NCBI GenBank assembly: GCA_900208305.1
Contig: OAPG01000008.1
Location: 124,001-188,000 of the forward strand
Source of the DNA: Melanopsichium pennsylvanicum
Lineage: Eukaryota > Basidiomycota > Ustilaginomycetes > Ustilaginales
DNA: 64,000 bases
Direction: 5' to 3'
Part shown: piece after piece, positions 1 through 14,329 of the stretch
Layout: each line of letters starts with the position of its first letter
How positions within the stretch are numbered: the first letter of the stretch is position 1
The notes under the pieces: generated by a model
The model's database searches: none
What the model saw: only the letters and a program-made list of their open reading frames with translations
What the model was told of the DNA's origin: nothing
Position numbers and translations under genes: made by a program

Positions 1-52
1 CTCTGGGCCCCCCATCCGCAACCGAATCACGACGGAACCACGATCGACTCAC

Positions 53-278
53 CTCCGGAAGCGGGTAACGTTGTTGTTGTTGTTGGTGCTGTTGTTGTTG
101 TTGCTGCTGCCGCTGTTGCCGACGCTGCCGCCGTCGCGGACGTAGGCGATGGAGGGGGAACGGTACTGACACCGGCCGACGGGTTGTCGGCCGGGGAATC
201 CATGGAAGCGTCTGCTGGTGGCGACGACATTGCGAAAAAAAGACAATCCAAGGAAGCGTCTGCTGGTGGCGACGACAT
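53..278 (-). CDS. RT-A antisense accessory gene, exon 1 only (partial)
   Basis: This is the first exon of the same antisense gene annotated in RT-B at 7592-9047. It runs from an ATG at 278 to a GTGAGT donor at 47-52. The exon is 226 nt long, exactly as in RT-B. The protein begins MSSPPADAS, where the same nine residues are encoded twice because the start region is tandemly duplicated (second ATG at 230), and continues as an Ala/Thr/Pro-rich stretch from CAG/CAA triplet runs. The remaining exons, which carry the cysteine cluster in RT-B, lie beyond the left edge. Confidence 0.6.
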
Positions 279-579
279 TGCAAAAAAAGAATGGGGAAGA
301 ATGGGGGAAATCGAGAAGGAAGACCCGTCGAACCCCATCCTTATATCCTTCCTCAATAGCTACGCACGAGCAATGGCGCACAGTCAATTCTGCCGGTCCA
401 AGGCATTGTGGGTGGTATTGCCTCATTGCTGCGCATCCGCGATTAAATTGCCGAGACGAGCGTCGCAACTTGTACAGAGAGGCGCCCCTGGCGCGGATTA
501 AGGTTGAGGGAGTACGACCCCCCTCGCCCTCCTGTCCTATCAGCCGCCTGGGGACCAGTCGGCCTGAACCGGGGGGTAA

Positions 580-1009
580 TGTTAGTGCCTACCAACCGGA
601 GTCCAAAGACGGGGTGCTTGGCCCCCCTCCCGATTGAGCGATCGTTGTGATTGGGCCCCAACCGACCCTCTCCGGACCCCTCGCAGCGGAGCGGTCGGCC
701 TGACACGATCCTCCTACCGCCCAACCGCGGCTGGCTCCTCCGTACGTAGGATACGACCGTCGGTAACCTAACATTGTAACGCCGCGGTGGGAAGTGACCG
801 ATAGTTCCTGTACCTTACCACCCCGCCCCCGCCTGACATGAGGTTGCCTCCGGACCTCGTCGCATGTATTACTTAGTTAGCTCTATAGCAACGCAGTAGT
901 GTGCTCTGACCCCCGACCGCCTGTGTCGCCCCGCCTACGACCTCTCCGTACCCGTAGCCTCCATCCCGGCTGTAGCCGCCCGCGGTATCTAGACCCTACA
1001 GCCTTAACA
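580..1009 (+). repeat. 3' LTR of RT-A (430 bp)
   Basis: It begins TGTTAGTGCC and ends AGCCTTAACA, with the TG...CA ends typical of LTRs and the six-base inverted ends TGTTA(G)/(T)TAACA. It is preceded by a short G-rich polypurine tract (GGGGGGTAA, 571-579). It has the same length as both RT-B LTRs and differs from the left RT-B LTR at 9 positions by eye. Confidence 0.92.
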
Positions 1010-1059
1010 CGCTCCCGTCGTTTGGCTTTGTCCCCACGGGAGGCGACAAAGGCATAGAG

Positions 1060-4000
1060 ATGGAAACGACACTAGAAGAGCCTCCCACTGCCGTCGAAAT
1101 CCCAGCCCCGTACTACCCCCTCAAGGATGTATTCGACGAGGTCGAAGCGGACAAGCTTCCCCCTCACACAAAGCACGACTTGCACATCGAGCTACTACCC
1201 AGTTCGACGCCACCCCAAGGTCCGCTATATCTCAAGGGACCTAAGGAGATGGCCGAGCTGAGGAAGTACCTCAAAGAGAATCTCGAGAAGGGATTCATTT
1301 GGCCCTCAAAGAGCCCGGCGCGATCCCCCGTCCTCTTCGTGCCTAAGAAGGACGGCGGCCTGCGACTCTGCGTAGACTACCGCGGTCTCAACGAGGTCAC
1401 GGTTAAGAACCGAGCACCACTGCCCTTAATCAAGGAGCAGCTGTTCCTCCTACGAAAAGCGAAGATCTATACCAAGCTGGACCTAAAGGCAGCTTACAAC
1501 TTGGTTAGGATCGCCGACGGGGACGAATGGAAAACCGCGTTTGGAACTCAACTCGGACTGTATGAGTATCTGGTCATGCCATTCGGGTTGGCAAATGCGC
1601 CCGCGCACTTCCAATCGCTCATCAACACCATCTACCGCGACATCATTGGCGTATACGTGGTAGTATACCTTGACGACTTCCTGATCTTCAGCGACAACGA
1701 GAAGGAACACATCGAGCATGTCAGGACGGTGCTCAGTAGGCTCAAGGTATGGCGGTTATTCACCAAACTCTCGAAGTGCGTGTTCCATACCGATACTGTT
1801 GAGTTCCTCGGCTACATCATCAAGCCGTCAGGTATCGAGATGGACCCCAACAAGATCAGGACTATCAAGGAATGGCCGATGCCGGAGTCTATACACGACA
1901 TCCAACGCTTCCTCGGGTTCGCCAACTTCTATCGCAGATTCATCTCTGACTTTGCACGTATAGCGAGACCGCTCACTTCCCTCGTTAAGCCCACAGAGCG
2001 ATTCAAGAAGTTCGACCTCCCTGACGACGCTTGCGCTGCTTTCCACAAGCTGGTGGAAATGTTCACCACCGCTGGGGTTCTCAAACACTTCGACTACCAT
2101 CGTCCTACCCGGTTGGAAACGGACGCAAGCGACTTCGCTCTTGCTGGAGTACTCAAACAAGAGCACGACGGACGATGGCACCCGATAGCATTCTACTCGC
2201 GCAAGATGGCATCGGCGGAGAAGAACTACAAGATCCATGACAAGGAACTCCTCGCTGTTGTTGTCTGTCTCAACCACTGGCGGCACATGCTTGCAGGACT
2301 ACCTAGTCAGCTCATTATTCTCACTGATCACGAGGCGCTCAAATACTTCAAGTCTCAGCGGAAGATCACAGGTCGGCAGGCTCGATGGTCAGTGTTACTC
2401 GCTGATTTCGACTTTGTACTCCAATACAGACCAGGAGATAAAGCAGGAGAGCCAGATGCGTTGACACGACGAAGTGATATGCAGCCGACCGCAGAAGAAG
2501 ACCTACACAACGTCCGACAGCTGTTACCGGCACGAGTATTTGCCGAGGATTTCGAAAACCGCCGAGTGGACTCAACTCGGCGGATTTCACCGAAATTTGC
2601 CAAGAAAGAGCTACTCGCCGAATCTCAAATAAATATGCTAAAACCAACGATGTCCGATATTGCGGAGGGAGGGCTGGTCCAACTCGTAAAGACTTTCCAG
2701 CCGCTTGATGCCAAGCTCGCAGAGCTTCATCAGAAGCAACCTTTCGAAGTTAGACATGGCCTGTGGTATCGCGACGGTCGGCTAGTGGTGCCGCGAGTCA
2801 CATTACCAGGTAAGAAAGGTCAACGCAACACTCGGAGTGCCGCCGAAGCAAAGGATCGCTCGCTCTCGGTGGAGCACCTGAGATACATGGTAATGTCCCA
2901 ATGCCACGACGGCGCTACCGCTGGCCATGCAGGTCGAGACGCCACCCTCGAGCTCACAAGGCGGCATTATTGGTGGCCAAATATGGCGGCATGGGTTGCT
3001 GACTATGTAGCAAGCTGCCCAGTGTGCGCTCGATATAAAGCACCGCGACACCGACCATATGGCCTTTTGCAGCCGCTGTCGACGCCGTCAAGACCCTGGA
3101 ATTCCATCTCGATGGATTTCATTGAAGGGTTACCTAAATCGGAGGGGTATGACTCGATCTTTGTAGTGGTCGACCGGTTGACTAAATATGCCATCTTAAC
3201 CCCGACGTACAAGACAATAACGTCGGAGCAGACGGCAAAGATGCTCAAAGACCAAGTTATGTCCCGTTTCGGGGTATCGGAGCACATTGTCTCAGACCGC
3301 GGCCGACAATTCGTCTCGGCGGCATGGAAAGAGTTCACCGACAAGCTGGTCATCCACCACTCGCTCAGCACAGCCTACCACCCACAGACGGACGGGCAAA
3401 CGGAGCAAGTCAATCAAGTTGTCGAGCAGTACCTCCGTATGTACTGCAACTACGAGCAGGACAACTGGGTAACCTGGCTGCCGATGGCCGAGTTCGTTTA
3501 CAACAACACGGTCCACAGCAGCATAGGAGTCTCACCTTTCTTTGCTTGCTACGGGTGGAATCCAAAATCACACCCCGATCTCCCAGAACAAGTCGGTGTG
3601 CTTGACCCCAAGAGAAAAGAGTTTGCCACCCGAAGAAAAGAATTTACGGAGTATCTACAGGAGCAAATCAGGTACGCTCAAAGCCGAACCGTTGAGCAAT
3701 ATAACCGTAAACGGAAGGACATCGAGTTCAAAGTTGGAGACATGGTCTACGTCAACCGAAAGAACTGGAAGACAGCTCGACCCAGTCCCAAACTCGACAC
3801 AAGATTAGCAGGCCCGTTCCCCATCCTCGAACGAATTGGCAGAAGAGCATACCGGCTCCAACTCCCAGCAAGTTTGCGCGTACACAACGTTTTCCATGTC
3901 TCGATGCTTGAGCCTCAAAGGGCAAGCTCACTCCCACAGCGCTCCACACTCAAAGTCACGCCGCCCCTACCGGACGACACTCTAGAATTCGAGGTAGAGG

Positions 4001-4158
4001 CTATTGTGGGGAAGCGAAAACAGGGTAGGCAAGTACAGTACAAAGTCCAATGGAGGGGCTATCCCGAGGAGGCAGCCTCGTGGGAACCGACAGACTGTCT
4101 CAACTGCCCAGACCTCATCCGGGAGTATGAGGAATCGGCGGGGGGACGGAGACACTAA
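1060..4158 (+). CDS. pol: RT-C pol polyprotein (RT, RNase H, integrase, chromodomain), 5'-truncated
   Basis: Reverse transcriptase covers about residues 70-250, with the catalytic YLDD box at 203-206. RNase H follows from about 350 (LETDASD, later HDKE and TDHEAL). Integrase has an HHCC zinc finger at about 604-660 (GHAG...CPVC) and the D-D-E core at about 684 (SMDF), 744 (SDRG) and 780 (QTEQ). A GPF module precedes a C-terminal chromodomain at about 977-1027 (YKVQWRGY, ASWEP), which in chromoviruses directs insertion to marked chromatin. No stop codon interrupts the 1032 residues. The ATG at 1060 is only the first ATG after the RT-A junction; the frame is open back to 1010, so the true protein began upstream with gag or protease. 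As it stands it is a broken pol. Confidence 0.92.
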   Translation: METTLEEPPTAVEIPAPYYPLKDVFDEVEADKLPPHTKHDLHIELLPSSTPPQGPLYLKGPKEMAELRKYLKENLEKGFIWPSKSPARSPVLFVPKKDGGLRLCVDYRGLNEVTVKNRAPLPLIKEQLFLLRKAKIYTKLDLKAAYNLVRIADGDEWKTAFGTQLGLYEYLVMPFGLANAPAHFQSLINTIYRDIIGVYVVVYLDDFLIFSDNEKEHIEHVRTVLSRLKVWRLFTKLSKCVFHTDTVEFLGYIIKPSGIEMDPNKIRTIKEWPMPESIHDIQRFLGFANFYRRFISDFARIARPLTSLVKPTERFKKFDLPDDACAAFHKLVEMFTTAGVLKHFDYHRPTRLETDASDFALAGVLKQEHDGRWHPIAFYSRKMASAEKNYKIHDKELLAVVVCLNHWRHMLAGLPSQLIILTDHEALKYFKSQRKITGRQARWSVLLADFDFVLQYRPGDKAGEPDALTRRSDMQPTAEEDLHNVRQLLPARVFAEDFENRRVDSTRRISPKFAKKELLAESQINMLKPTMSDIAEGGLVQLVKTFQPLDAKLAELHQKQPFEVRHGLWYRDGRLVVPRVTLPGKKGQRNTRSAAEAKDRSLSVEHLRYMVMSQCHDGATAGHAGRDATLELTRRHYWWPNMAAWVADYVASCPVCARYKAPRHRPYGLLQPLSTPSRPWNSISMDFIEGLPKSEGYDSIFVVVDRLTKYAILTPTYKTITSEQTAKMLKDQVMSRFGVSEHIVSDRGRQFVSAAWKEFTDKLVIHHSLSTAYHPQTDGQTEQVNQVVEQYLRMYCNYEQDNWVTWLPMAEFVYNNTVHSSIGVSPFFACYGWNPKSHPDLPEQVGVLDPKRKEFATRRKEFTEYLQEQIRYAQSRTVEQYNRKRKDIEFKVGDMVYVNRKNWKTARPSPKLDTRLAGPFPILERIGRRAYRLQLPASLRVHNVFHVSMLEPQRASSLPQRSTLKVTPPLPDDTLEFEVEAIVGKRKQGRQVQYKVQWRGYPEEAASWEPTDCLNCPDLIREYEESAGGRRH
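2559..2583 (+). repeat. Perfect hairpin within RT-C pol
   Basis: CCGCCGAGT and ACTCGGCGG form a perfect 9-bp stem around a 7-nt loop, in the linker between RNase H and integrase. The arm resembles the CCGCCGAG words of the repeats at 4301-4428. No function is claimed. Confidence 0.6.
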
Positions 4159-4577
4159 GCTGAAGAGGATCTTGCGAGCCGCAATGCATGCCATCACAGG
4201 AGAGTAAGATGGTGAGAAGCTCGACGACGATGTTGAGCGGCGAAGGTAGAAGGTTGCAGGAATCGAGATCCGGACAATGACCCCGACTCAGGGAATTTCC
4301 ACGAAATCCGCCGAGTACTGCACAATTCAACGGATCTCAGAAAAAATTAAAAAAAAAAATCGCGGGGTAACGAGAACCTAAAAAGTCACAAAATCCGCCG
4401 AGGAATGCATGATCCAAAGGATCTCAGGCCTTAACGGGCGATGCGAGTCGACAAGTATATTCCTCAGAGTCGTCGCACCTGTTGCACACCGAAAGTCACG
4501 CAATCAAGCTCACACTAGGTTCAATGGGTAACGAGGCACTGCCATTGCAACAAGTCGACACAGCCAGCGGGCACAGA
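4159..4577. other. Spacer between RT-C pol and the antisense gene, with short repeats
   Basis: No coding sequence is supported here. Two copies of a roughly 40-bp motif (4301-4340 and 4388-4428) share AAATCCGCCGAG followed about 13-15 bases later by GGATCTCAG. Related words occur in the 3' LTR. Confidence 0.6.
4301..4428 (+). repeat. Two copies of a dispersed AAATCCGCCGAG...GGATCTCAG motif
   Basis: The copies are at 4301-4340 and 4388-4428. Longer, diverged relatives are at 5864-5928 and 5972-6035 in the RT-C 3' LTR, and a partial one is near 6779-6820. The motif thus brackets the antisense gene. Confidence 0.55.
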
Positions 4578-5724
4578 CTACTCCGCAGACTCGGGGGCTA
4601 ACGAAGGCCCAGGTACCGAAGGAGGCTCGATATCCTCGAAGGGCGAGCACATGGACCGCAGTTGCCGCTGACGATCGAAGTATTCCTCGATCGTTGTCAG
4701 TACCGGCACGCGCCGACCGCGAGGCGAGGCAGACCAAATGATACGCATCGCGTGCGCCCAGTTCGGGTCTGCCACACCATCCGAGTCACGGTCGAGGCCA
4801 CGTACCTCTCCCAACCCTCGACCCCCCGCTCCCGTGACGTGAGCTCGCTCGACGCCACGCTCGCCTCGATGCAGATGGCTAGGAGGGGCGTCGCCAGCGT
4901 ATACCATCGTTGGCAACGCCCTCTCGGTTCGCACGCACTTCTTGTGGCCGCCCAGATGGCAATGCACACAAGCGCGCGGAGTTCGGCCCTTGCCACCGGC
5001 AGAAAGCACGTCAGCGAAGGCCGACGGGAAACAACTGGGACGAAACAAAAAAAGGGAAGAACCAGAGTCAGCAGTGAGTATCGAACGTCGAAGGGGGCAG
5101 TGGTACTTACGGTATACCAAGCTTGGCGCAGCGGGCGCATTGCCAGCTCGGCCAAGGCATGCAGCCTTCGGTTAGCCAAAGGAGAACCAGACGATGCAGT
5201 CGACCGGCCGTCACGGAACCCTCCGATACCACCCAAGTGGGGGGCCAGGCCTCGCACGCCACGAACACCAGCAACACCGGAGCGATAAGCGACTCCGCCC
5301 ACAGCGCAACCTCGAGGTAGTTGGGCACATGAGGCCCAACGAGCGGAGCGACAGGTTCCTCCCCAACCTCGCTAATCCTCCCTACGACCGACTCCTCCAC
5401 CTCCATCGCCTCCAGCCGCTCTTCCTCCTCCTCCGCAACATCGTTTCCCAAAAACAGCGGTTCCAGTGGCCGCGGCGTCGACCGCAACGCGACGAGCTGC
5501 TCGGCAGCCACAATTTTGATGGGCTGCTCGCCAGCAGCAGGGGACGACGAAGCTGTGGCCTCGAGGCCGACAGCCGAAGGTGTTGTCACTGCCCAAGTGG
5601 CAGGATTTCGGTTGCGAAGCCTGGCGCTACGGCGCACAGGCTCTTCTGCCCTGAGGGCAGGCAGTCGTGTCGACGCTGGTCGCGATGACGCAGCGGAAGG
5701 GGCATTATTCAAGTGGTTCGACAT
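4578..5724 (-). CDS. RT-C antisense accessory gene with a Zn2Cys6-like six-cysteine cluster (2 exons)
   Basis: The model is exon 1 5111-5724, intron 5035-5110 (donor GTAAGT, branch-like CTGAC, acceptor CCCAG) and exon 2 4578-5034. The reading phase is kept across the splice, giving 356 residues. The start ATG (5724) lies about 60 bp after a TATA-like sequence (5784-5794). The N-terminal half is rich in Ala, Pro and Glu with a basic patch (RRSARLRNR). The splice joins CARCAKLGIPC to a later CVHCHLGGHKKC: cysteines at about 196, 199, 206, 227, 230 and 238, that is CX2CX6C-X20-CX2CX7C. This resembles a fungal Zn2Cys6 DNA-binding cluster with a long linker, but the function is unknown. It lies opposite and convergent to pol. 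It may be an element-encoded regulator or a captured host gene. The splice is predicted, not shown. Confidence 0.68.
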
Positions 5725-5783
5725 CTTGACGGTTTAGAAGGTGCTGTTGGTGGAAGAACAAGTCGGGGGAACACCCGCCGACC

Positions 5784-5794
5784 CTATTTAAGCC
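5784..5794 (-). promoter_or_regulatory. TATA-like box of the RT-C antisense gene
   Basis: On the minus strand the sequence reads GGCTTAAATAG, about 60 bp upstream of the ATG at 5724. It lies in the internal region just inside the 3' LTR, so the antisense gene appears to have its own promoter. Confidence 0.45.
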
Positions 5795-5813
5795 TCAACG
5801 GAGCTCGGCTCTC

Positions 5814-5826
5814 GAAGGGGGGGTAG
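5814..5826 (+). other. Polypurine tract of RT-C
   Basis: GAAGGGGGGGTAG directly abuts the TGTCAC start of the 3' LTR, the expected position of the plus-strand primer. It supports the LTR boundary at 5827. Confidence 0.75.
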
Positions 5827-5863
5827 TGTCACGGGAGTGGGTCCCAAGGAAGAGGTCTGCGCA

Positions 5864-6035
5864 GACCAGAGATGTTGAATCGGCTGAGATCCAGTGGGAG
5901 AGCATGTCTCGACGGATCTCAGGGAGATCTGGTGGATATTGGTGGGCTCATGGGATTTAAGGTTAGCGCAGGACCGAGAAGTTGAATCGGACGAAATCCG
6001 GTGAGAGAGCAGGTCTCAACGGATCTCACGGAAAT
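5864..6035 (+). repeat. Two imperfect ~64-bp direct repeats in U3 of the RT-C LTR
   Basis: The units 5864-5928 and 5972-6035 share GTTGAATCGG, GAGAGAGCA-like and CGGATCTCA blocks. They lie 250-400 bp upstream of the TATA box, where enhancer repeats would be expected. Confidence 0.65.
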
Positions 6036-6284
6036 TCGGCAAGTGGCAGTGACTTGCCGGATATCGAAGGTATCGATGGCAAGGGGAGCATCTGCGATGG
6101 CGGCAACCAACGCCACGCCGGAACGACACGTGGGCCAATCGACGCCCAGGGGGCAACGGAGAGGGAGCACGCGGGCGTGCTCGGAAGCACCCTGCCGAAG
6201 GACTAGGGGGCGGTCTTATCGTGCGGGGGGTCCAAGCTCGACGCACGCAGGTCGTACAGTACCGATGGACCTCGCACACGATAC

Positions 6285-6297
6285 ATATATATAAATA
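6285..6297 (+). promoter_or_regulatory. TATA box of the RT-C LTR promoter
   Basis: ATATATATAAATA is the only strong TATA sequence in the LTR and is oriented to transcribe RT-C. It places the start of R around 6320-6330. Confidence 0.6.
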
Positions 6298-6628
6298 CTC
6301 TGTTCCCCGCTATCGGATGAGCGGAAGCTCATCCACTCTATCTTATATCTCAGTCACACATAGTTATCAGTACGTCGTACTTACCATACTCTTCACACGT
6401 CGCACATCGCAATACCATTTATTGCGATCCATATAGTCTGTGTCCCCGTCGGTGAACGGAGAACAACGTATAGATGTCGTCGACACCACAATCGACGCTG
6501 TAGCACCTCAACTACAGGCGGAACCTCAACCGCGGGCCTGGCACCACAACCAGTCCCTCATAACTCCACCGGCGACGACGGCTGAGGTCTAACCCAGCCA
6601 TCAGCAGTATCCCGTCGACGTCGTGACA

Positions 6629-6860
6629 CTCGCGTCGACCGAATACCCAGTCCGAGCTTGCCGCGTTACCTCTGTACGGAGTGTCACCAGCGGTCAGCCG
6701 ATATCCGTCGAGAGATCGCCACTCGCGGGATTCTCTTCGATATCCGTTGAGGCCAAGCTTAACCGCCGGAACTCACCGAAATCCGGCGAGTCGCGCATTC
6801 TCACGGGAATTCGGATCTCTGGCACGCGACCGCTGACACCTCACCCCCAACCTCCAGTGG
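6629..6860. other. Spacer between RT-C and RT-B
   Basis: 232 bp without coding content. It includes a partial copy of the ATCCGGCGAG motif (6779-6820) and an imperfect inverted pair (GTGTCACCAGCGGTC at 6681 and GACCGCTGACAC at 6829) that could be remnants of another LTR. Confidence 0.5.
6856..6860. repeat. Left target site duplication of RT-B (AGTGG)
   Basis: AGTGG directly precedes the left LTR and is repeated at 14330-14334 directly after the right LTR. A 5-bp duplication is usual for Ty3/gypsy integrases. Confidence 0.9.
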
Positions 6861-7290
6861 TGTTAAGGCTGTAGGGTCTAGATACCGCGGGCGGCTACAG
6901 CCGGGATGGAGGCTACGGGTACGGAGAGGTTGTAGGCGGGGCGACACAGGCGGTCGGGGGTCAGAGCACACTACTGCGTTGCTATAGAGCTAACTAAGTA
7001 ATACATGCGACAAGGTCCGGAGGCAACCTCATGTCAGGCGGGGGCGGGGTGGTAATGTACAGGAACTATCGGTCACTTCCCACCGCGGCGTTACAATGTT
7101 AGGTTGCCGACGGTCGTATCCTACGTACGGAGGGGCCAGCCGCGGTTGGGCGGTAGGAGGATCGTGTCAGGCCGAACGCTCCGCTGCGAGGGGTCCGGAG
7201 AGGGTCGGTCGGGGCCCGATCACAACGATTGCTCAATCGGGAGGGGGGCCAAGCACCCCGTCTTTGGACTCCGGTTGGTAGGCACTAACA
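6861..7290 (-). repeat. 3' LTR of RT-B (left, 430 bp)
   Basis: In plus orientation it runs TGTTAAGGCT to GGCACTAACA. It is the same length as the other LTRs of the family. On the coding strand it follows a G-rich tract (7291-7300). Confidence 0.95.
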
Positions 7291-7300
7291 TTACCCCCCG
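7291..7300 (-). other. Polypurine tract of RT-B
   Basis: The minus strand reads CGGGGGGTAA directly before the TGTTAG start of the 3' LTR. The same sequence is found in RT-A (570-579). It is short but in the expected position. Confidence 0.6.
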
Positions 7301-7591
7301 GTTCAGGCCGACTGGTCCCCAGGCGGCTGATAGGACAGGAGGGCGAGGGGGGTCGTACTCCCTCAACCTTAATCCGCGCCAGGGGCGCCTCTCTGTACAA
7401 GTTGCGACGCTCGTCTCGGCAATTTAATCGCGGATGCGCAGCAATGAGGCAATACCACCCACAATGCCTTGGACCGGCGGAATTGACTGTGCGCCATTGC
7501 TCGTGCGTAGCTATTGAGGAAGGATATAAGGATGGGGTTCGACGGGTCTTCCTTCTCGATTTCCCCCATTCTTCCCCATTCTTTTTTTGCA
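7301..7591. other. Region between the RT-B 3' LTR and the antisense gene
   Basis: No gene is supported here. It should hold the promoter of the antisense gene; ATATAAG at 7524-7530 is TATA-like. An open frame through it uses a TTG start at 7514 and is not taken as coding. Confidence 0.5.
7524..7530 (+). promoter_or_regulatory. TATA-like box of the RT-B antisense gene
   Basis: ATATAAG lies about 65 bp upstream of the ATG at 7592, a spacing much like that of the RT-C antisense gene. The identical sequence is present in RT-A. Confidence 0.45.
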
Positions 7592-7672
7592 ATGTCGTCG
7601 CCACCAGCAGACGCTTCCTTGGATTGTCTTTTTTTCGCAATGTCGTCGCCACCAGCAGACGCTTCCATGGAT
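7578..7672 (+). repeat. Tandem duplication of the antisense gene's start region
   Basis: Two copies of about 48 bp each contain a T-run, CAATGTCGTCGCCACC and the codons for MSSPPADAS. The first copy has its ATG at 7592 and the second at 7640, in the same frame. The same duplication is in RT-A. Confidence 0.85.
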
Positions 7673-9047
7673 TCCCCGGCCGACAACCCGTCGGCCGGTG
7701 TCAGTACCGTTCCCCCTCCATCGCCTACGTCCGCGACGGCGGCAGCGTCGGCAACAGCGGCAGCAGCAACAACAACAACAGCACCAACAACAACAACAAC
7801 GTTACCCGCTTCCGGAGGTGAGTCGATCGTGGTTCCGTCGTGATTCGGTTGTGGATGGGGGGCCCAGAGGGTCTGACAACCACCGGTTGGTGCCGTGGAA
7901 TGGGTTACTGACATTTGTTCCCTCCCCCTTGTTTCGATTACGACAGATCGGCCGTTGGAGACCTCCGCTGGTCCCATTCGGGGGGTGCGCCGTTCCCCGC
8001 GTGCTCACCTTTCCCGGGGGGCCAACTCGGGCCGTTGCAAGCGCGCCGTGCGTCAACAGCCTGCCGATCCGTCGGCCATTCCTTCCTCTGCATTGGCCAA
8101 CACTTCCCTCGTCCTGGCGCCCCGGAATTCGATGCCGTGGTTGCGTCCTTTGGTTCCCATCGAGATCACTCCGGAACTCGTTGGTGATGGTAAGTATTTG
8201 TTCCATTGCTGTGTTGATTGGGATCGCTACTGACGTTTGTGTTTCCGTCGCTGCTGCGACAGATCTTGCCCCGCTATGGGCCAAGACGTGGGGTGATTGC
8301 TACGCCTGCGTATGCGCCGGCGTTGCCTGTGAGCAGGCGGGAGGCGATCACCGCTGCCGTCGGTGTCAGGGGCACCACGGGCAACCCTGCGACGCGGATA
8401 TGCGCGGTAAGTATTTCCGTCGGGCGTCTGTCGCGATGTCTTGGGTGGTCGGCTGACTCTTGTTCCTCCTTTTGTTTTCCTCGACAGTCCCACCACTTGG
8501 CGGCGCCCAAGGTCCCCTCCAAATGAGGGTTTACGCGTGCTTGCTTGAGAGGTGGAGGTCCGGAGGGGTCGGTCGGCGTCGCCGCCCCCACCCCAACGTC
8601 AGGTTGTCGCTGAGGACACTTGGCGAGATCCCGGAGGAGGAGGAGGAACTGAGGGAGGAGATGGCTCGGGTGGGCGCGGTGGGTCGGGAGCGGGAGGCGG
8701 CTCGCAAGCGAGCTAGGTCTCGCCCCGACCGTCCAGCCGAGGCTGCCCAAGAGCGGCGCCGCACTCGGGCGCAGGCCCAAGGCCAGCCGGGGGAGTCCGC
8801 TACGGGCCTGGGGGATCTGGGTGCGGCCGTAAGGCGTGCCGAGTCCCTCTTCCACGGGGTGCAGGAGGGGACTGAGTTATTTCAACAGGGGCTGGCCGAC
8901 GTGGCTGCGCTGTTGCTGACAGAGTTGCTGAGGACCGGCGGCGAGCGAGAGCTCCGCCGGATCAGCGAGATCCAGCAACTGTCGCAGAACACGCAACAGC
9001 AGGTGGACGTGGTCTGGGCGTGGTTGGAGGGCTTCCTGAGGGACTAG
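7592..9047 (+). CDS. RT-B antisense accessory gene with a Zn2Cys6-like six-cysteine cluster (4 exons)
   Basis: Exons are 7592-7817, 7947-8189, 8263-8406 and 8488-9047. All three introns are phase 1, with GTGAGT or GTAAGT donors, CTGAC branch points and GACAG acceptors. The spliced frame is open for 390 residues. Exon 1 encodes a Ser/Pro/Ala/Thr-rich leader. Exon 3 encodes cysteines at about 169, 172, 179, 188, 191 and 199, that is CX2CX6C-X8-CX2CX7C, resembling a fungal zinc cluster. Exon 4 encodes an acidic then Arg-rich stretch and a helical, coiled-coil-like C-terminus. The gene is convergent with pol (180 bp apart). RT-C carries a counterpart in the same place with the same cysteine spacing apart from the linker. 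A regulatory or DNA-binding role is inference. The second ATG (7640) could also start translation. Confidence 0.75.
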
Positions 9048-9227
9048 CCCCGGGGCCCTTATTCGAATGCACTTGTTTTTTCTGTTGCTTGCGTGTGTGT
9101 GTGTCCGTGTGTGGGAGTGGGGGTGAGGGGAGCCCGACCGGGTCTCCTAGCCAAGAGGTCGGGGACCGGAGGGGTTTTGGCTCCGGCGGGGGGGTCTCCC
9201 GACGGCGACCGTCGCTCGTATCCGTGC

Positions 9228-12200
9228 CTAACGCCGGGTAGGGGCAGGCTTGGTCGGGTTCGCGGCGTGGTACGCAGCGACCAGATCCGGGGCGCGGTCC
9301 ACGTCTTCCGCCGGGACCCAGCTTGGGGGGTACCCTACCCAGGAGACCTTGTACTGTAGGCGTCCGGCGCGGCGGCGGGAGTCCAATACGCCCTCGACTT
9401 TGAAATTGGCGTAGTCGTCCTCCAGAGTAGTCGGTTGGGGGGCGTCGCTGGACTCCCTGACTCCGTCGGGGTATGGCTCCAGCATCTGTACGTGAAAGAC
9501 GGGGTGGACCTTCCACGACGGAGGCAGGAGGAGTCGGTAGGCTCGGTCGCTAATCACCTCGTCGACTTTGAACGGGCCGGCGAGGGGGTTGGAGAGCTTG
9601 TGGGAGGGTCGGTCGCTGCGGAGGTGCTTGGTACGGAGGAGCACCAGGTCCCCCCGGCGGAACGAGACGTCGCTCCTGCGACGGTTAAACCACTTCGCGA
9701 CGGCAAGGTTGGCTTTGGCGATGGCGTCCTGGCACACCCGCACTTTATCCGCCGACGGAACGTTGGAGGTGGCCGGGGGGATGGAGGGGTGTGCCCGAGG
9801 TGCAAATGTGAAGCAAGCTATAGCCGGGGCGATGGTTGTGGTCGCCAACGGTCTTTGGTTCAGCGCGAGCTGGGCTGTCGGCAGGAGGGTTGCCCAGTCG
9901 CTGTGGTCGTAGGCCGTATAGAAGCGGAGGAACAACTCCAGCGTCTGGTTGGCTCGCTCGGTCTGGCCATTTGTTTGAGGGTGGTAGGCCGACGAGTAAG
10001 ACCCTTTAATCCGGAGGGCCCGGAGGAGTTCCGTCCAAACGGAAGCTACAAACGTGGTTCCTCGGTCAGATACAATGGTGTCCGGGAGGCCAAAGTATGA
10101 AAAGACGTAGCGGTGGAGCTGGTACGCCAAAGTCTCCGCCGTATCGGTTTTGTTTGCAGGAATGAAGACCACAAACTTGGTGAGGCGGTCGACGACTACA
10201 AGAATGGAGTTGTAGGTGGTGCCGTTGGCAAGGGAGGGCGGGAGGTCAGTGATGTGGTCCATGGTAATAGTGGACCACGGCCGATTGGGAGGGACCGACG
10301 GGAGAAGGTAGCCGTGGGGTTTGTGACGGGGGTGTTTTGCCCTTCGGCAGGCCGCGCAAGAGGCGACATAGCTGTCGGTGTCCTGCGCCATGGTTGGCCA
10401 GTAAAAACGTTGACGCATGAGATGGAGGGTCGTCTTGCGGCCAGGATGTCCCGCCGTAGGGTGGTCGTGCAGTAGGTGGAGTGCCTTGTCCCGTAATTGG
10501 GGTGGCAGGTAGACGTGACCTTCTGTGGTGTACGGGACACCATCGCGGACGGCAACGTTTGGGGGGAGGTTGGCCGCTTTCCGGAGGGTTTCGATCCACT
10601 CCGTAGGCAGGGGGTCCGAGGAGTGTACGCCGGCTGCCCTTGCAAACAAGTTTGCAGGGAGGAGAGTGGCTTGGTTGGCGGGGTCTGGGCGCGACGGTCC
10701 GTCGGGGAACAAGTCGTGCCGGCGACTCAGAGCGTCGGGGCGGACGGCCTCCTTACCCGGACGGTAGTGGAGGACGAAGTTGAACTCAGCCAGGTCAGCT
10801 TGCCAGCGGGCTTGGCGACGGTTGAGTTGTCGCTTCGTCTGAAAATACTGGAGCGCCTGGTGGTCGGTGTAAATGAGGAACGGTCGGGTGAGGCCATGGA
10901 GGTAGTGTCTCCAAGCGCCGCAGGCGTCTACGATAGCCAGGAGTTCCTTGTCGTGGATTTCGTAGTTACGCTCCGCCGGGATCATCTTTCGCGACCAGTA
11001 TGCCACAGGATGGAGGGTATGCGAGCGGCTGTTGGGCTCGGCGCTCGCGTCGGCGCCCGGCTGTGGGTGCCACTGCGACAGCACGGCGGCTACCACAGCA
11101 TCGCTCGCGTCTGTTTCGACGACGGTGTAGAGCGTTGGAGAGAAGTGCCGGAGGATAGGGGCAGAGGTGAACGCTTCTTTCAGCCGGTTGAAGGCTGCCG
11201 TTGCTTCCGGGGGCAGATCTACCTTTCCGGAGGCTCCTCCTTTCAGGAGGTTGGTGAGGGGGGCCGCTACACGAGAATAGTGGCGGATGAAGCGACGGTA
11301 GAAGTTGGCGAATCCGAGGAAGACTTGGATCTGTCGGATCGACTGTGGTGGCGGCCACCCCAAGACTGCACTGACCTTGGTTGGGTCCATGGAGAGGCCG
11401 TCGGGACTGACGAGGTAGCCGAGGAACTCGACGAAGGCGGTGTGGAATTCGCATTTGTCCGGAGCGCAATACAGCTGATGCTTCCGTAATCGATCCAACA
11501 CTTGGCAGACGTGGTGGTGGTGGTCGGCCTCGTTGTCGGAGAAGACTAGGATGTCGTCCAGATATACAATGACGGACACGTCTAAGAGATCCGACAGCAC
11601 GTGGTTCATGAGCCATTGGAAGGTCGCCGGAGCGTTGCAGAGGCCGAACGGCATGACAAGGTATTTGTAGCTGCCGTAGCGCGTGCGGAATGCGGTCTTC
11701 CATTCGTGGCCAGGGGCGATCCGGAGGAGGTTGTAGGCACCCTTCAGGTCGAATTTAGTGAAGATCTTGGCCGTCGCCAGCCGATCAAGGTGTTCGGAGA
11801 TGAGGGGGATCGGGTAGCGATCCTTGACGGTGATGGCGTTGAGGGCGCGGTAGTCCACACACGGCCGGAGGCAACCGTCCTTCTTTGGTACAAAAAGGAG
11901 GGGCGCGGCAGCTTGGCTACTCGACGGTCGGATGAAGCCAATGGCCTGCATCTTCCGGAGGTAGTTCCGGAGCTCCTCTTGTTCGCGGTGCGACAGGGAG
12001 TAGAGTGCGCCGTAGGGAGGGGTTTTGCCAGCCTCCAGGTTGATCTCGTGGTCGTGTGGGCGGTGGGGAGGCAATTGGTCGGCCCTCTCGGCGTTGAAGA
12101 CGTCGGCGTACTCGCGGTACTCTGGCGGTAGGACGGCGAGGTTGGTCGCGGAAGCTCGGAGGGGCAGTAGCTCCTCTTCCGGTTCTGGGAGGACCAGCAG

Positions 12201-12404
12201 GTCCTCCTCAGTGGAGACCAGCTGTCGCCGGCCGACCAAGTTGTGGAGTTCGTTCTTTTCGATTTTGGGGTTGGAGGGCACCGTGACGGTGTGGGGGACC
12301 CGGAGGTCCCACGTACGGAGGGTATAGTTTGGCTCCGGCCTGGCGGCCTCGATCCAATCCATCCCCAACAGCACGTCGTGGGAGGTCATGGGGGTGATGA
12401 AGAG
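9228..12404 (-). CDS. pol: RT-B pol polyprotein (RT, RNase H, integrase, chromodomain)
   Basis: Reading from the protease remnant (LLGMDWIEAA, about 12370), RT follows with its YLDD box near 11560, and RNase H lies near 11125 (VETDASD). The integrase zinc finger is near 10450-10330 (HPTAGHPG, CAACRRAK). The D-D-E core is at about 10255 (TMDH), 10060 (SDRG) and 9955 (QTERANQ). A GPF module and a C-terminal chromodomain (9390-9240, YKVSWVGYP) end the protein. The chromodomain looks shortened, since GYPPSW lacks the few residues usual before the conserved W. This frame stays open up to 12866, but the part upstream of 12404 overlaps gag and protease in other frames and is not homologous to pol. 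In an intact relative, protease and pol would share one frame. Confidence 0.9.
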   Translation of the reverse strand, partial: LFITPMTSHDVLLGMDWIEAARPEPNYTLRTWDLRVPHTVTVPSNPKIEKNELHNLVGRRQLVSTEEDLLVLPEPEEELLPLRASATNLAVLPPEYREYADVFNAERADQLPPHRPHDHEINLEAGKTPPYGALYSLSHREQEELRNYLRKMQAIGFIRPSSSQAAAPLLFVPKKDGCLRPCVDYRALNAITVKDRYPIPLISEHLDRLATAKIFTKFDLKGAYNLLRIAPGHEWKTAFRTRYGSYKYLVMPFGLCNAPATFQWLMNHVLSDLLDVSVIVYLDDILVFSDNEADHHHHVCQVLDRLRKHQLYCAPDKCEFHTAFVEFLGYLVSPDGLSMDPTKVSAVLGWPPPQSIRQIQVFLGFANFYRRFIRHYSRVAAPLTNLLKGGASGKVDLPPEATAAFNRLKEAFTSAPILRHFSPTLYTVVETDASDAVVAAVLSQWHPQPGADASAEPNSRSHTLHPVAYWSRKMIPAERNYEIHDKELLAIVDACGAWRHYLHGLTRPFLIYTDHQALQYFQTKRQLNRRQARWQADLAEFNFVLHYRPGKEAVRPDALSRRHDLFPDGPSRPDPANQATLLPANLFARAAGVHSSDPLPTEWIETLRKAANLPPNVAVRDGVPYTTEGHVYLPPQLRDKALHLLHDHPTAGHPGRKTTLHLMRQRFYWPTMAQDTDSYVASCAACRRAKHPRHKPHGYLLPSVPPNRPWSTITMDHITDLPPSLANGTTYNSILVVVDRLTKFVVFIPANKTDTAETLAYQLHRYVFSYFGLPDTIVSDRGTTFVASVWTELLRALRIKGSYSSAYHPQTNGQTERANQTLELFLRFYTAYDHSDWATLLPTAQLALNQRPLATTTIAPAIACFTFAPRAHPSIPPATSNVPSADKVRVCQDAIAKANLAVAKWFNRRRSDVSFRRGDLVLLRTKHLRSDRPSHKLSNPLAGPFKVDEVISDRAYRLLLPPSWKVHPVFHVQMLEPYPDGVRESSDAPQPTTLEDDYANFKVEGVLDSRRRAGRLQYKVSWVGYPPSWVPAEDVDRAPDLVAAYHAANPTKPAPTRR

Positions 12405-12634
12405 TCGGTGGCGCCGGTATCGAGCAAGGCAAGGCCTTGCGTGTCGCCGACGCTTACCAAGCATTCGTAGGTTGGTAAGGTAGGGTGTCGATGGATCCGG
12501 AGAACGGATCCCTCTTGCTCCACGACGGGAGTGTCGGTCCGGTGGGCTGCCCAGAATGCTGCGGCGAGCACCCGGAGCTGGCTTAGGTTGTCGATGGGTT
12601 CGGACCGAAGGAACCCATCGACCCTTAGTTTCCC
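12399..12634 (-). pseudogene. RT-B retropepsin, truncated and frameshifted
   Basis: In the -1 frame relative to gag, a leader leads to ECLVSVGDTQ and the active site LLDTGATD (DTGAT codons at 12407-12421). Only a residue or two later the frame meets a stop (TGA at 12386). The pol frame picks up with FITPMTSHDVLLGMDW, which in Ty3/gypsy proteases lies about 60-70 residues after DTGA. The flap and most of the domain are therefore missing, and the deletion shifts frame near 12399-12404. A functional dimeric protease is not expected. Confidence 0.8.
12590..12634 (-). promoter_or_regulatory. Programmed -1 frameshift signal between gag and protease
   Basis: On the minus strand the gag frame ends GGA AAC TAA, with the slippery heptamer G GGA AAC (12628-12634) directly before the stop (12625-12627). 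After 5 nt (TAAGG) comes a perfect 12-bp stem: GTCGATGGGTTC pairs with GAACCCATCGAC (12611-12622 with 12590-12601) around a 9-nt loop. A -1 slip on GGGAAAC enters exactly the frame holding the protease DTGA. All three elements of a canonical signal are present with normal spacing. Confidence 0.88.
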
Positions 12635-13860
12635 TCCGGGGGATCCTCCGAATCCAATAGGTCACTGTCGGGGTTGGAGGCTGACCCGTCATCCATGGGG
12701 TTGACGAGTATAGTCCCAGAATTGTTGTCAAATGAAATAGCATGTGCCCGGAGAGTTTGTGTTTGGGGCGCCTTCGGGCAGTCACGGGCCAAATGGTCGC
12801 TGCCACCGCAGCCGAAGCACTGCCCGTTGGTCCGTCGGTGCTGGCGGAGGCGTTCCGCCGCATCACGCGTAGGGTCCTTGGCCGGTAGTGGAGGTCGTTC
12901 CATTTTGCGGGGTCCCTCCGGGGGCTCTCGTTTGGCCGTCACGGCTGGGAGGGGCGGTCGGTGTTGCAGCTGTGACTCCGCGGGTCTTGTCGTGGCCTCC
13001 TGTATCACCTGCATCCGGCGCTCCGTGACAATGGCGGCGTTGATGAAGTCACGGATGTCGGTCATCGGCACGTGGGTGAGCTTTTCCCGTAGGCGCGGCC
13101 GGAGGCTTTGTTCGAACAGCATCAACGCCTGCTGCTGGTCGGTCAGGTGCGATTTGGCCGTCAGCGACATGAACTCCGCCGCGTGCTCCAATACTGATCC
13201 CTTCTGGCAGAGGGCATTCAGTTGGAGGCGTGCGGTGTAGCTGGGGTCGGGATCGCCATGGACGCGACGGAGGTCGGCGCAAAAGGCCCTCCAGGAGCTC
13301 ATCCAGGGCGGATCCTCCCCCTCCTGTTGTCGCACATTGCGAATGCGGGTTCGTGGTTTGCCCGTCATGTTGCCGATGGCAAACATGATGCGACGGGCAT
13401 CCGTCGGAAACTTGGAGGGATTAGCCTCGAAGTTGAGTTCGCATTGATCCAAGAAGTCCTCCAGTTTGTCTTGGCTGCCGTCCCATTCCGGAGCCTGGAG
13501 TCGAATCTCTGGCTCGCGGGGCGCGGCCTCCACGTAGACGGGGGCTACGGTTGGCGGGGGGACCTGGGCAGCGGTTGCTCCTTGGTAGTGCTGAGAAGAC
13601 TCCGGTCTAGGTTGATCCTCCCTGGGGAAGAAGGCGGCCTCTAGCAGAGCGGTAATGCGCCGCTGTTGTTCAGAGGTTTCACGCAGAAGCGCCAGGATAT
13701 CCACTTGCCCTTGGACCAAGGTGGTCAGGGCGGCGGGCGGTTCGCCCGAGGGTGCAACAACGCTGGCGGGCTCGTCTCCGCTGGGGGAGATGGTGGGAGC
13801 GTCTCCCTCCGCTTGGGGGGAGGCGTCCGTTTGGTTTCGTTGGTTGGAGCGTGTACTCAT
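12625..13860 (-). CDS. gag: RT-B Gag (capsid and nucleocapsid)
   Basis: 411 residues if started at the ATG at 13860 (MSTRSNQRNQ), chosen because the open frame upstream runs into the untranslated leader and LTR. The N-terminus is low-complexity and acidic. The middle holds a helical Ty3/gypsy-type capsid domain (WDGSQDKLEDFLDQCELNF, then LTAKSHLTDQQQALMLFEQS). A single CCHC knuckle near the C-terminus (CFGCGGSDHLARDC, CX2CX4HX4C) would bind the RNA genome. Translation ends at TAA 12625-12627 inside the frameshift signal, so most product is Gag and a minor part would continue into protease. Confidence 0.9.
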   Translation of the reverse strand: MSTRSNQRNQTDASPQAEGDAPTISPSGDEPASVVAPSGEPPAALTTLVQGQVDILALLRETSEQQRRITALLEAAFFPREDQPRPESSQHYQGATAAQVPPPTVAPVYVEAAPREPEIRLQAPEWDGSQDKLEDFLDQCELNFEANPSKFPTDARRIMFAIGNMTGKPRTRIRNVRQQEGEDPPWMSSWRAFCADLRRVHGDPDPSYTARLQLNALCQKGSVLEHAAEFMSLTAKSHLTDQQQALMLFEQSLRPRLREKLTHVPMTDIRDFINAAIVTERRMQVIQEATTRPAESQLQHRPPLPAVTAKREPPEGPRKMERPPLPAKDPTRDAAERLRQHRRTNGQCFGCGGSDHLARDCPKAPQTQTLRAHAISFDNNSGTILVNPMDDGSASNPDSDLLDSEDPPEGN

Positions 13861-13888
13861 CTTGGTTACGACGTCGTCCCGTGGGGAG

Positions 13889-13898
13889 GTCGCATGTA
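13889..13898 (-). other. Putative self-priming primer binding site of RT-B
   Basis: The minus strand, one base after the 5' LTR, reads TACATGCGAC. This is the exact complement of GTCGCATGTA inside the same LTR (14041-14050). No tRNA 3'-end complement starting TGG is visible at this position. The layout matches self-primed Tf1/sushi-type elements, where the first bases of the transcript pair with the primer binding site. Confidence 0.6.
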
Positions 13899-13899
13899 A

Positions 13900-14329
13900 T
13901 GTTAAGGCTGTAGGGTCTAGATACCGCGGGCGGCTACAGCCGGGATGGAGGCTACGGGTACGGAGAGGTTGTAGGCGGGGCGACACAGGCGGTCGGGGGT
14001 CAGAGCACACTACTGCGTTGCTATAGAGCTAACTAAGTAATACATGCGACAAGGTCCGGAGGCAACCTCATGTCAGGCGGGGGCGGGGTGGTAATGTACA
14101 GGAACTATCGGTCACTTCCCACCGCGGCGTTACAATGTTAGGTTGCCGACGGTCGTATCCTACGTACGGAGGGGCCAGCCGCGGTTGGGCGGTAGGAGGA
14201 TCGTGTCAGGCCGAACGCTCCGCTGCGAGGGGTCCGGAGAGGGTCGGTCGGGGCCCGATCACGACGATCGCTCAATCGGGAGGGGGGCCAAGCACCCCCT
14301 CTTTGGACTCCGGTTGGTAGGCACTAACA
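13900..14329 (-). repeat. 5' LTR of RT-B (right, 430 bp)
   Basis: It has the same ends as the left LTR and differs from it at three positions by eye (two in the ACAACGATT/ACGACGATC block and one in CCCCG/CCCCC). It should hold the promoter for gag-pol; if the self-priming model holds, R begins at about 14050. Confidence 0.95.

Follow-up and report, generated by a model that had tools for sequence, protein, structure and literature searches.

Spliced antisense cysteine-cluster genes in two chromodomain retrotransposon families of Melanopsichium pennsylvanicum, with a polymorphic island in one of them

Long terminal repeat (LTR) retrotransposons have been known for years to carry extra genes on the antisense strand, whose function is unsettled (PMC7264820). 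The closest described cases are the aORF-3R genes, which are antisense and lie between pol and the 3' LTR; examples are gene23 of maize Grande, rice RIRE2, Silene Retand and brtn of Botrytis Boty (PMC7264820, PMC11963269, PMC8365987). Here we describe a 64,000-nucleotide stretch of the Melanopsichium pennsylvanicum genome (contig OAPG01000008.1, positions 124,001 to 188,000; hereafter the window), which holds members of two LTR retrotransposon families, RT-B and RT-C. In each, the interval from pol to the 3' LTR holds a spliced gene that runs antisense to gag-pol and encodes a protein with a six-cysteine cluster. These genes resemble aORF-3R in place, strand, presence in most copies (seen for RT-C), a suspected promoter of their own and a suspected nuclear or DNA-binding role, and differ in that the aORF-3R excerpts mention no spliced antisense gene, cysteine cluster or polymorphic island. 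Antisense extra genes as such are already known in LTR elements (Grande, Retand, Boty), and so are chromodomain Ty3/gypsy elements with an extra open reading frame, which share with ours the element type and the additional frame. We did not find this spliced cysteine-cluster gene or its polymorphic cassette among the open-licence papers listed, judged by titles and the starts of abstracts, and the words antisense, Ty3 and zinc are absent from a paper on smut retrotransposons (PMC9603552). A multi-copy case in which the gene is under constraint, shows a splicing pattern, keeps its cysteines from one genus to another and contains an island of diversity offers a direct handle on function, and suggests that the gene's action is allele-specific.

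Two other systems are similar in part. HBZ of human T-lymphotropic virus 1 (HTLV-1) is antisense near the 3' end, spliced, and a regulator in trans (a role shown for HBZ and supposed here); it starts in the 3' LTR and codes for a basic leucine zipper (bZIP) (PMC3185765), whereas our genes have a TATA-like box outside the LTR and encode a cysteine cluster. Ty1 copy number control (Ty1 versus Ty1' gag) is likewise a self-control module whose versions have diverged and are passed by recombination from one subfamily to another, but the Ty1 factor derives from gag (PMC7055915), and the gag side of RT-C does not vary with the antisense gene.

RT-B and RT-C are Ty3/gypsy chromodomain elements (chromoviruses), and Pfam places a chromodomain (Chromo, PF00385) in the pols of both. 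An initial annotation of this DNA had called the families unrelated; over two long stretches, however, their pols show 53% and 42% identity, so we regard them as related families. The same annotation had placed a gene on the opposite strand between pol and the 3' LTR in both, a position borne out by the Pfam domains and the LTR placement (Table 1). Splicing by standard signals, as it had proposed, gives CX2CX6C-X8-CX2CX7C in RT-B and the same pattern with an X20 linker in RT-C, and the exon structures are as claimed, four exons against two, with an intron splitting the cluster only in RT-C. The deposited model P0001 (356 aa) has splicing identical to our RT-C prediction; P0005, P0007 and P0008 omit part of the RT-C cluster. 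The TATA-like box that it had noted about 60-65 bp before each ATG lies 60 bp upstream in RT-C and 61 bp upstream in RT-B, counted to ATG 7592. Since the introns survive, the gene would have to be carried within the genomic RNA in unspliced, complementary form, a deduction that we judge sound. The initial annotation also suggested that such genes may act on the LTR promoter or restrain pol through antisense transcription. The RT-C coding part ends 419 bp before the pol stop, so that an overlap of its transcript with pol would need a long 3' end.

To follow these genes across copies we searched one genome, that of M. pennsylvanicum (assembly of 21.1 Mb), and examined, besides the window, 33 RT-C copies (the match list has 40 other rows) and 27 RT-B copies (43 other rows); the copies compared are dispersed paralogues, not alleles at one site. 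Net exon length changes that break the frame occur in 3/33 RT-C copies and 1/27 RT-B copies, and non-triplet intron length changes in 24/33 and 13/27, respectively, many of them inherited jointly and hence representing fewer independent events. The RT-B triplet indels are weaker evidence, sitting in exons 1 and 2, the first of which contains a triplet-repeat stretch. GT..AG is retained in 32 of the 33 RT-C copies and at all 81 RT-B introns (81/81), and 26 of 27 RT-B copies are open to the normal stop. Counting all sequences, the window included, all six cluster cysteines are retained in 33/34 for RT-C and all seven cluster-region cysteines in 28/28 for RT-B, whereas Cys90 of RT-B, outside the cluster, is a cysteine in 3/28. 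Cysteines and splice sites are thus conserved in further copies, as the initial annotation would require. In 100,000 shuffles of either protein the cysteine pattern with a linker of 5-30 residues never arose by chance; with looser spacings it arose once in 100,000 for RT-C and not at all for RT-B. The gene also stays with its element: beside 34 full-length RT-C pol matches (window included), compared by hand from match lists that set lower bounds, it is full in 29, partial or split in 4 and lacking in 1.

The RT-C frame is under coding constraint. Among shared variants, defined as those in at least two copies, the ratio of nonsynonymous to synonymous changes (N/S) in the spliced frame amounts to 0.42 times the neutral value once 4 disturbed copies are excluded and 0.55 times with all 34 sequences, given an assumed transition bias of 4. 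Same-strand shifted frames score 1.14 and 1.78, showing no constraint. One opposite-strand frame scored 0.56, which we attribute to a shared wobble register. The cluster itself, for which the initial annotation had proposed such a comparison across copies, scores 0.26 in RT-C and 0.61 in RT-B. Frames separate poorly in RT-B, with 0.97 for the true frame and 0.68 and 1.27 for shifted ones. The pol-tail N/S values are inflated by copies with non-homologous flanks, and N/S, like Tajima's D and the Fisher tests used below, ignores recombination and the kinship of copies.

Relatives of the RT-C protein occur in Ustilago hordei, U. nuda, U. tritici and Ustilago sp. UG-2017a, with 35-54% identity over the aligned part. 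In an alignment of 13 sequences, cluster cysteines 1, 2, 4 and 5 are invariant and 3 and 6 are present in at least 90%; the exceptions, P0031 and P0033, look like mis-predicted gene models. The Ustilago relatives probably reside in retroelements as well, since they form clusters of many copies, with P0025 representing 75 sequences. In M. pennsylvanicum a further family, RT-D, carries a gene homologous to that of RT-C (profile E 3.6e-35) on the strand opposite to its pol, which was recognised by eye; the intron of this gene sits at the same residue and phase as in RT-C; a divergent, damaged relative of the RT-D gene was also seen (L083). Spliced coding genes carried by the element therefore exist in more than one family, as the initial annotation had held, and now include RT-D. 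For the RT-C protein, the search in other smuts that it had proposed gave the Ustilago relatives; for RT-B, no relatives outside Melanopsichium were among the matches listed. The proposal of one general class of regulators finds no support in profile comparison, in which hhalign shows no homology between the RT-B and RT-C proteins (Probab 0.15 on a 0-100 scale, E 0.39; shallow profiles). The two genes may still derive from one gene of a chromodomain ancestor and have diverged beyond recognition, an origin that we consider possible but rather less than probable: place, strand and cysteine spacing outside the linker are all alike and the pols are related, but profile similarity is lacking and the introns differ.

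The clusters recall, incompletely, the fungal Zn(2)Cys(6) domain (Pfam PF00172), a fold of two CxxC-helix-C halves with the pattern CX2CX6CX5-12CX2CX6-8C in which Cys2 and Cys3 enclose several basic residues that contact DNA. RT-B fits this spacing (X8, X7) yet has an extra cysteine, a seventh (residue 158) within the first half of its cluster; RT-C (X20) and RT-D and the Ustilago relatives (X18) do not fit. Here the cluster lies in mid-protein, and basic residues are nearly absent between Cys2 and Cys3, which enclose AKLGIP (one lysine), ARLDIP (one arginine), FNLGIP and VCAGVA. Pfam Zn_clus gives 7.2 bits for RT-C against a cut-off of 21 and no row for RT-B. The RT-B spacing favours an assignment to the Zn2Cys6 type, and against it are the sub-threshold Pfam score, the few basic residues and the overlong RT-C linker. 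Comparison with known Zn2Cys6 structures gave, for the cluster of a Ustilago relative of the RT-C protein, a weak match to HAP1 (1pyc). Scans for other families returned nothing credible (Pfam; NCBIfam on three relatives), a PDB sequence search gave chance-level rows (best E 0.15), Foldseek with a structure model reached a best E of 4.5, and Pfam scans of the antisense proteins gave no bZIP row.

The RT-C antisense gene coincides with an island of polymorphism. Across 27 of the 34 RT-C sequences (L030, L032, L040, L041, L044, L048 and L049 dropped), pairs differ on average by 8.9% in 4578-5745, compared with 2.8% in the pol tail, 3.0% in the LTR edge and promoter and 4.2% in the spacer. The ratio of gene to pol divergence is 3.2 (2.9-3.7 on resampling copies), and the gene exceeds pol in 329/351 pairs. 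By site class, the 5' untranslated region (5'UTR) reaches 16.6%, third positions of the gene 13.5% and its intron 10.2%; the figure for third positions of pol is 4.0%. In 200-bp bins across the window RT-C and three other copies, differences amount to 0-5% in pol and LTR; in the gene, 27/36 pairwise values are 8-16% and the others 0.9-7.7%, forming a mosaic: L087 and L088, for example, are 0.9% apart in one bin and 12-14% apart in others. The gag side (gag by Pfam) and the next piece are uniform like pol, at 0-3.8% in three copies. A two-breakpoint fit places the island at 4342-5745. Its 3' edge is soft; the 5' edge, about 40 bp downstream of the TATA-like box, is steep, with 26% in 5731-5745 versus 0.5% in 5746-5760, but 5761-5775 is again at 9.1%.

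This variation is old rather than new. Singletons are equally dense in gene (99/1041 sites, 9.5%) and pol (54/558, 9.7%; P=0.93), and by class they stand at 13.5% versus 11.3% for third positions and 7.5% versus 8.9% for first and second positions, whereas shared variants are in excess in the gene (218, 20.9%, versus 46, 8.2%; P=1e-11, sites treated as independent). Because only shared variants are in excess, we interpret the island as a set of old alleles and not as a hotspot. The 25 pairs that differ by less than 3% in the gene average 1.6% there, 2.5% in pol and 1.5% in the LTR edge, and thus have no excess. For Tajima's D we obtain +0.3 for the gene and -1.55 for the pol tail. Distances in the gene show next to no correlation with those in pol (Mantel r 0.14, P 0.007); within the gene, distances in the first and in the last quarter correlate weakly (r 0.29). 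Among RT-C pol matches, 36 are at 95-100% identity and 4 at 71%, with none listed between (40/61 candidates scored); old alleles are therefore present without an equally old pol among the matches listed.

We hypothesize, tentatively and as something just short of probable, that the antisense gene of each element encodes a cysteine-cluster regulator acting in trans, and that in RT-C it is in addition a diversity locus at which rare alleles are favoured. The gene would be transcribed, most likely from its own promoter, and spliced by the host; its product, a cysteine-cluster protein that is probably zinc-binding and nuclear, would act in trans on the element's life cycle, most likely by regulating expression or integration. 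In RT-C, old antisense alleles would be kept and reshuffled by recombination, with template switching between co-packaged RNAs as what we take to be the likely route, and gag, pol and LTR would be homogenised. The most likely cause would be selection for rare alleles, as control of the element would be allele-specific, exerted through the element's own protein, a host factor or homology between antisense and sense RNA. A stricter form, which we find somewhat doubtful, makes the RT-C gene an immunity-like locus under frequency-dependent balancing selection, where old alleles are swapped as a cassette and new copies escape allele-specific control. Temperate phages have exchangeable immunity regions; if balancing selection proves true, RT-C would offer a retrotransposon analogue of such loci, and one could then look for the target that is recognised.

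Several results weigh against a diversifying trans regulator. No examined part of the element co-varies with the RT-C gene, which argues against an LTR DNA target or a Gag target matched per allele, and shared amino-acid changes in RT-C are below neutral, so that the protein shows no hint of positive selection. The full frame is retained in only 15/33 RT-C copies, with 8 sharing a stop at codon 261. Singletons, expected at the neutral value, have an N/S of 0.51 in both antisense genes, so the neutral yardstick is rough. Shared variants in RT-B are near-neutral although the frame is kept, and that protein is therefore fast-evolving or relaxed. The RT-B excess is mild (third positions 3.2% versus 2.5% in pol, introns 3.8%), and gene and pol distances are correlated there (r 0.54; 24/28 sequences, L055, L069, L074 and L076 dropped). 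We saw no island in RT-D, whose comparable bins differ by 0.3-2.1%; bins beyond 2100 are not comparable since the copies seem cut, and RT-D is too uniform. Signs of recombination scale with variation and are not special to the gene (four-gamete minimum 82 for 194 informative sites; in the pol tail, 17 for 45), and recurrent mutation may contribute to both counts. The two structure models are poor (mean predicted local distance difference test score, pLDDT, 40.4 and 46.5).

The alternatives account for parts of this evidence. If diversity matters at the RNA level, antisense transcripts would pair with genomic RNA and feed small-RNA silencing, which divergent copies escape, and the protein would matter little; this is a narrower version of our hypothesis that overlaps with it. 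An island that begins past the TATA-like box and takes in 5'UTR, intron and third positions alike speaks for it, as does constraint on amino acids where silent and noncoding sites vary, but linked old alleles would raise silent sites too, whatever their cause, and we hold this version to be fairly unlikely. About equally unlikely is an account without selection for variety, in which the 3' end recombines freely with older or foreign elements, recent sweeps have homogenised gag, pol and LTR, and the gene is a passenger that tolerates old alleles. The plain mosaics in RT-C copies, the comparable frequency of recombination signs, per informative site, in the gene and in the pol tail, and the precedent of Ty1, which is reported to have gained a divergent module through horizontal transfer followed by recombination (PMC7055915), all favour such an account. 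Because both flanks are homogeneous, it requires many exchanges confined to the antisense unit, and the gap in pol identity described above also counts against it. The position of the 5' edge near the expected transcription start would suit a mutation hotspot caused by antisense transcription or error-prone copying, but the matching singleton densities led us to reject it as very improbable, and close pairs have no excess either. Least probable of all, to the point of being negligible, is that the two antisense genes are no more than frames left open by chance in an element rich in GC: open frames are indeed frequent on both strands here, but codon-frame constraint, the contrast between exon and intron indels, cysteine retention and the relatives in another genus oppose this, with the case for RT-B resting on its open frame and cysteine retention. 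We prefer the trans regulator that in RT-C is also a diversity locus.

Table 1. Features of the RT-C and RT-B elements in the window (positions are those of the window; aa, amino acids; RT, reverse transcriptase).
Feature	Position	Strand	Remarks
RT-B arm, inverted, nested in RT-C	1-1010		Cuts RT-C pol
RT-C element in window	1011..6838	+	Cut 5' by nested RT-B copy; three copies collinear 1010-6838
RT-C pol (RT, RNase H, integrase, chromodomain)	1060..4158	+	Pfam
RT-C polymorphic island	4578..5745	-	5' edge 5745; softer 3' excess to ~4342
RT-C antisense gene	5724 to 4578	-	2 exons, 356 aa
RT-C antisense exon 1	5111..5724	-	ATG at 5724; cluster cysteines 1-2
RT-C antisense intron	5035..5110	-	GT..AG, phase 2, directly before third cysteine; same site in RT-D
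RT-C antisense exon 2	4578..5034	-	Last four cluster cysteines and stop
RT-C six-cysteine cluster CX2CX6C-X20-CX2CX7C, intron included	4935..5139	-	
TATA-like TTAAATA	5785..5791	-	Upstream of RT-C ATG; resemblance only
RT-C 3' LTR (TGTCAC...TGACA)	5827..6838	+	
RT-B element	6861-14329	-	
RT-B 3' LTR	6861..7290	-	3 differences/430 vs 13900-14329
TATA-like ATATAAG	7524..7530	+	Upstream of RT-B ATG 7592; resemblance only
RT-B antisense gene	7640 to 9047	+	4 exons, 374 aa; 390 aa from in-frame ATG 7592
RT-B antisense exon 1	7640..7817	+	Alternative in-frame ATG 7592 within 47-bp tandem duplication
RT-B antisense exon 2	7947..8189	+	
RT-B antisense exon 3	8263..8406	+	144 nt; entire cysteine cluster, 8298-8390
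RT-B antisense exon 4	8488..9047	+	Basic stretches
RT-B antisense introns	7818-7946, 8190-8262, 8407-8487	+	
RT-B pol with chromodomain	9228..12866	-	Pfam
RT-B gag, capsid-like, CCHC knuckle	12625..14010	-	Pfam, some rows slightly below cut-offs
RT-B 5' LTR	13900..14329	-	

The RT-C remnant is flanked by two RT-B copies of opposite orientation. About 22 kb upstream, the same strand of this contig holds a near-identical RT-C LTR (C8:107913-108921), which probably represents the opposite end of the RT-C element in the window.

Some observations concern the RT-B gene. Four deposited models (P0037-P0040) skip the cluster exon, reflecting either predictor error or a cluster-less isoform; skipping keeps the frame because exon 3 has a length divisible by three. 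The 47-bp tandem duplication (7580-7673) doubles the start region of the gene, and 14 of the first 37 RT-B match rows, starting at query 50-55, may lack one unit. Deposited P0043 (contig C3, 630 aa) joins sequence of the RT-B cluster region to PF00565 and PF00567 domains, which may reflect gene models fused in annotation where an element inserted, or else exon capture.

At RT-C codon 261 (window 4866-4868), the window has CGA and the eight copies noted above have TGA, a stop that keeps the cluster and loses the last 96 residues; it reflects either repeated deamination or a truncated allele being passed on. Residues 31-36 of the RT-C protein read RRSARL in 21/27 sequences, and the N-terminal parts of the RT-D and RT-B proteins contain RRSARV and RRSPRA, motifs that resemble the nucleosome-binding core of HMGN proteins.

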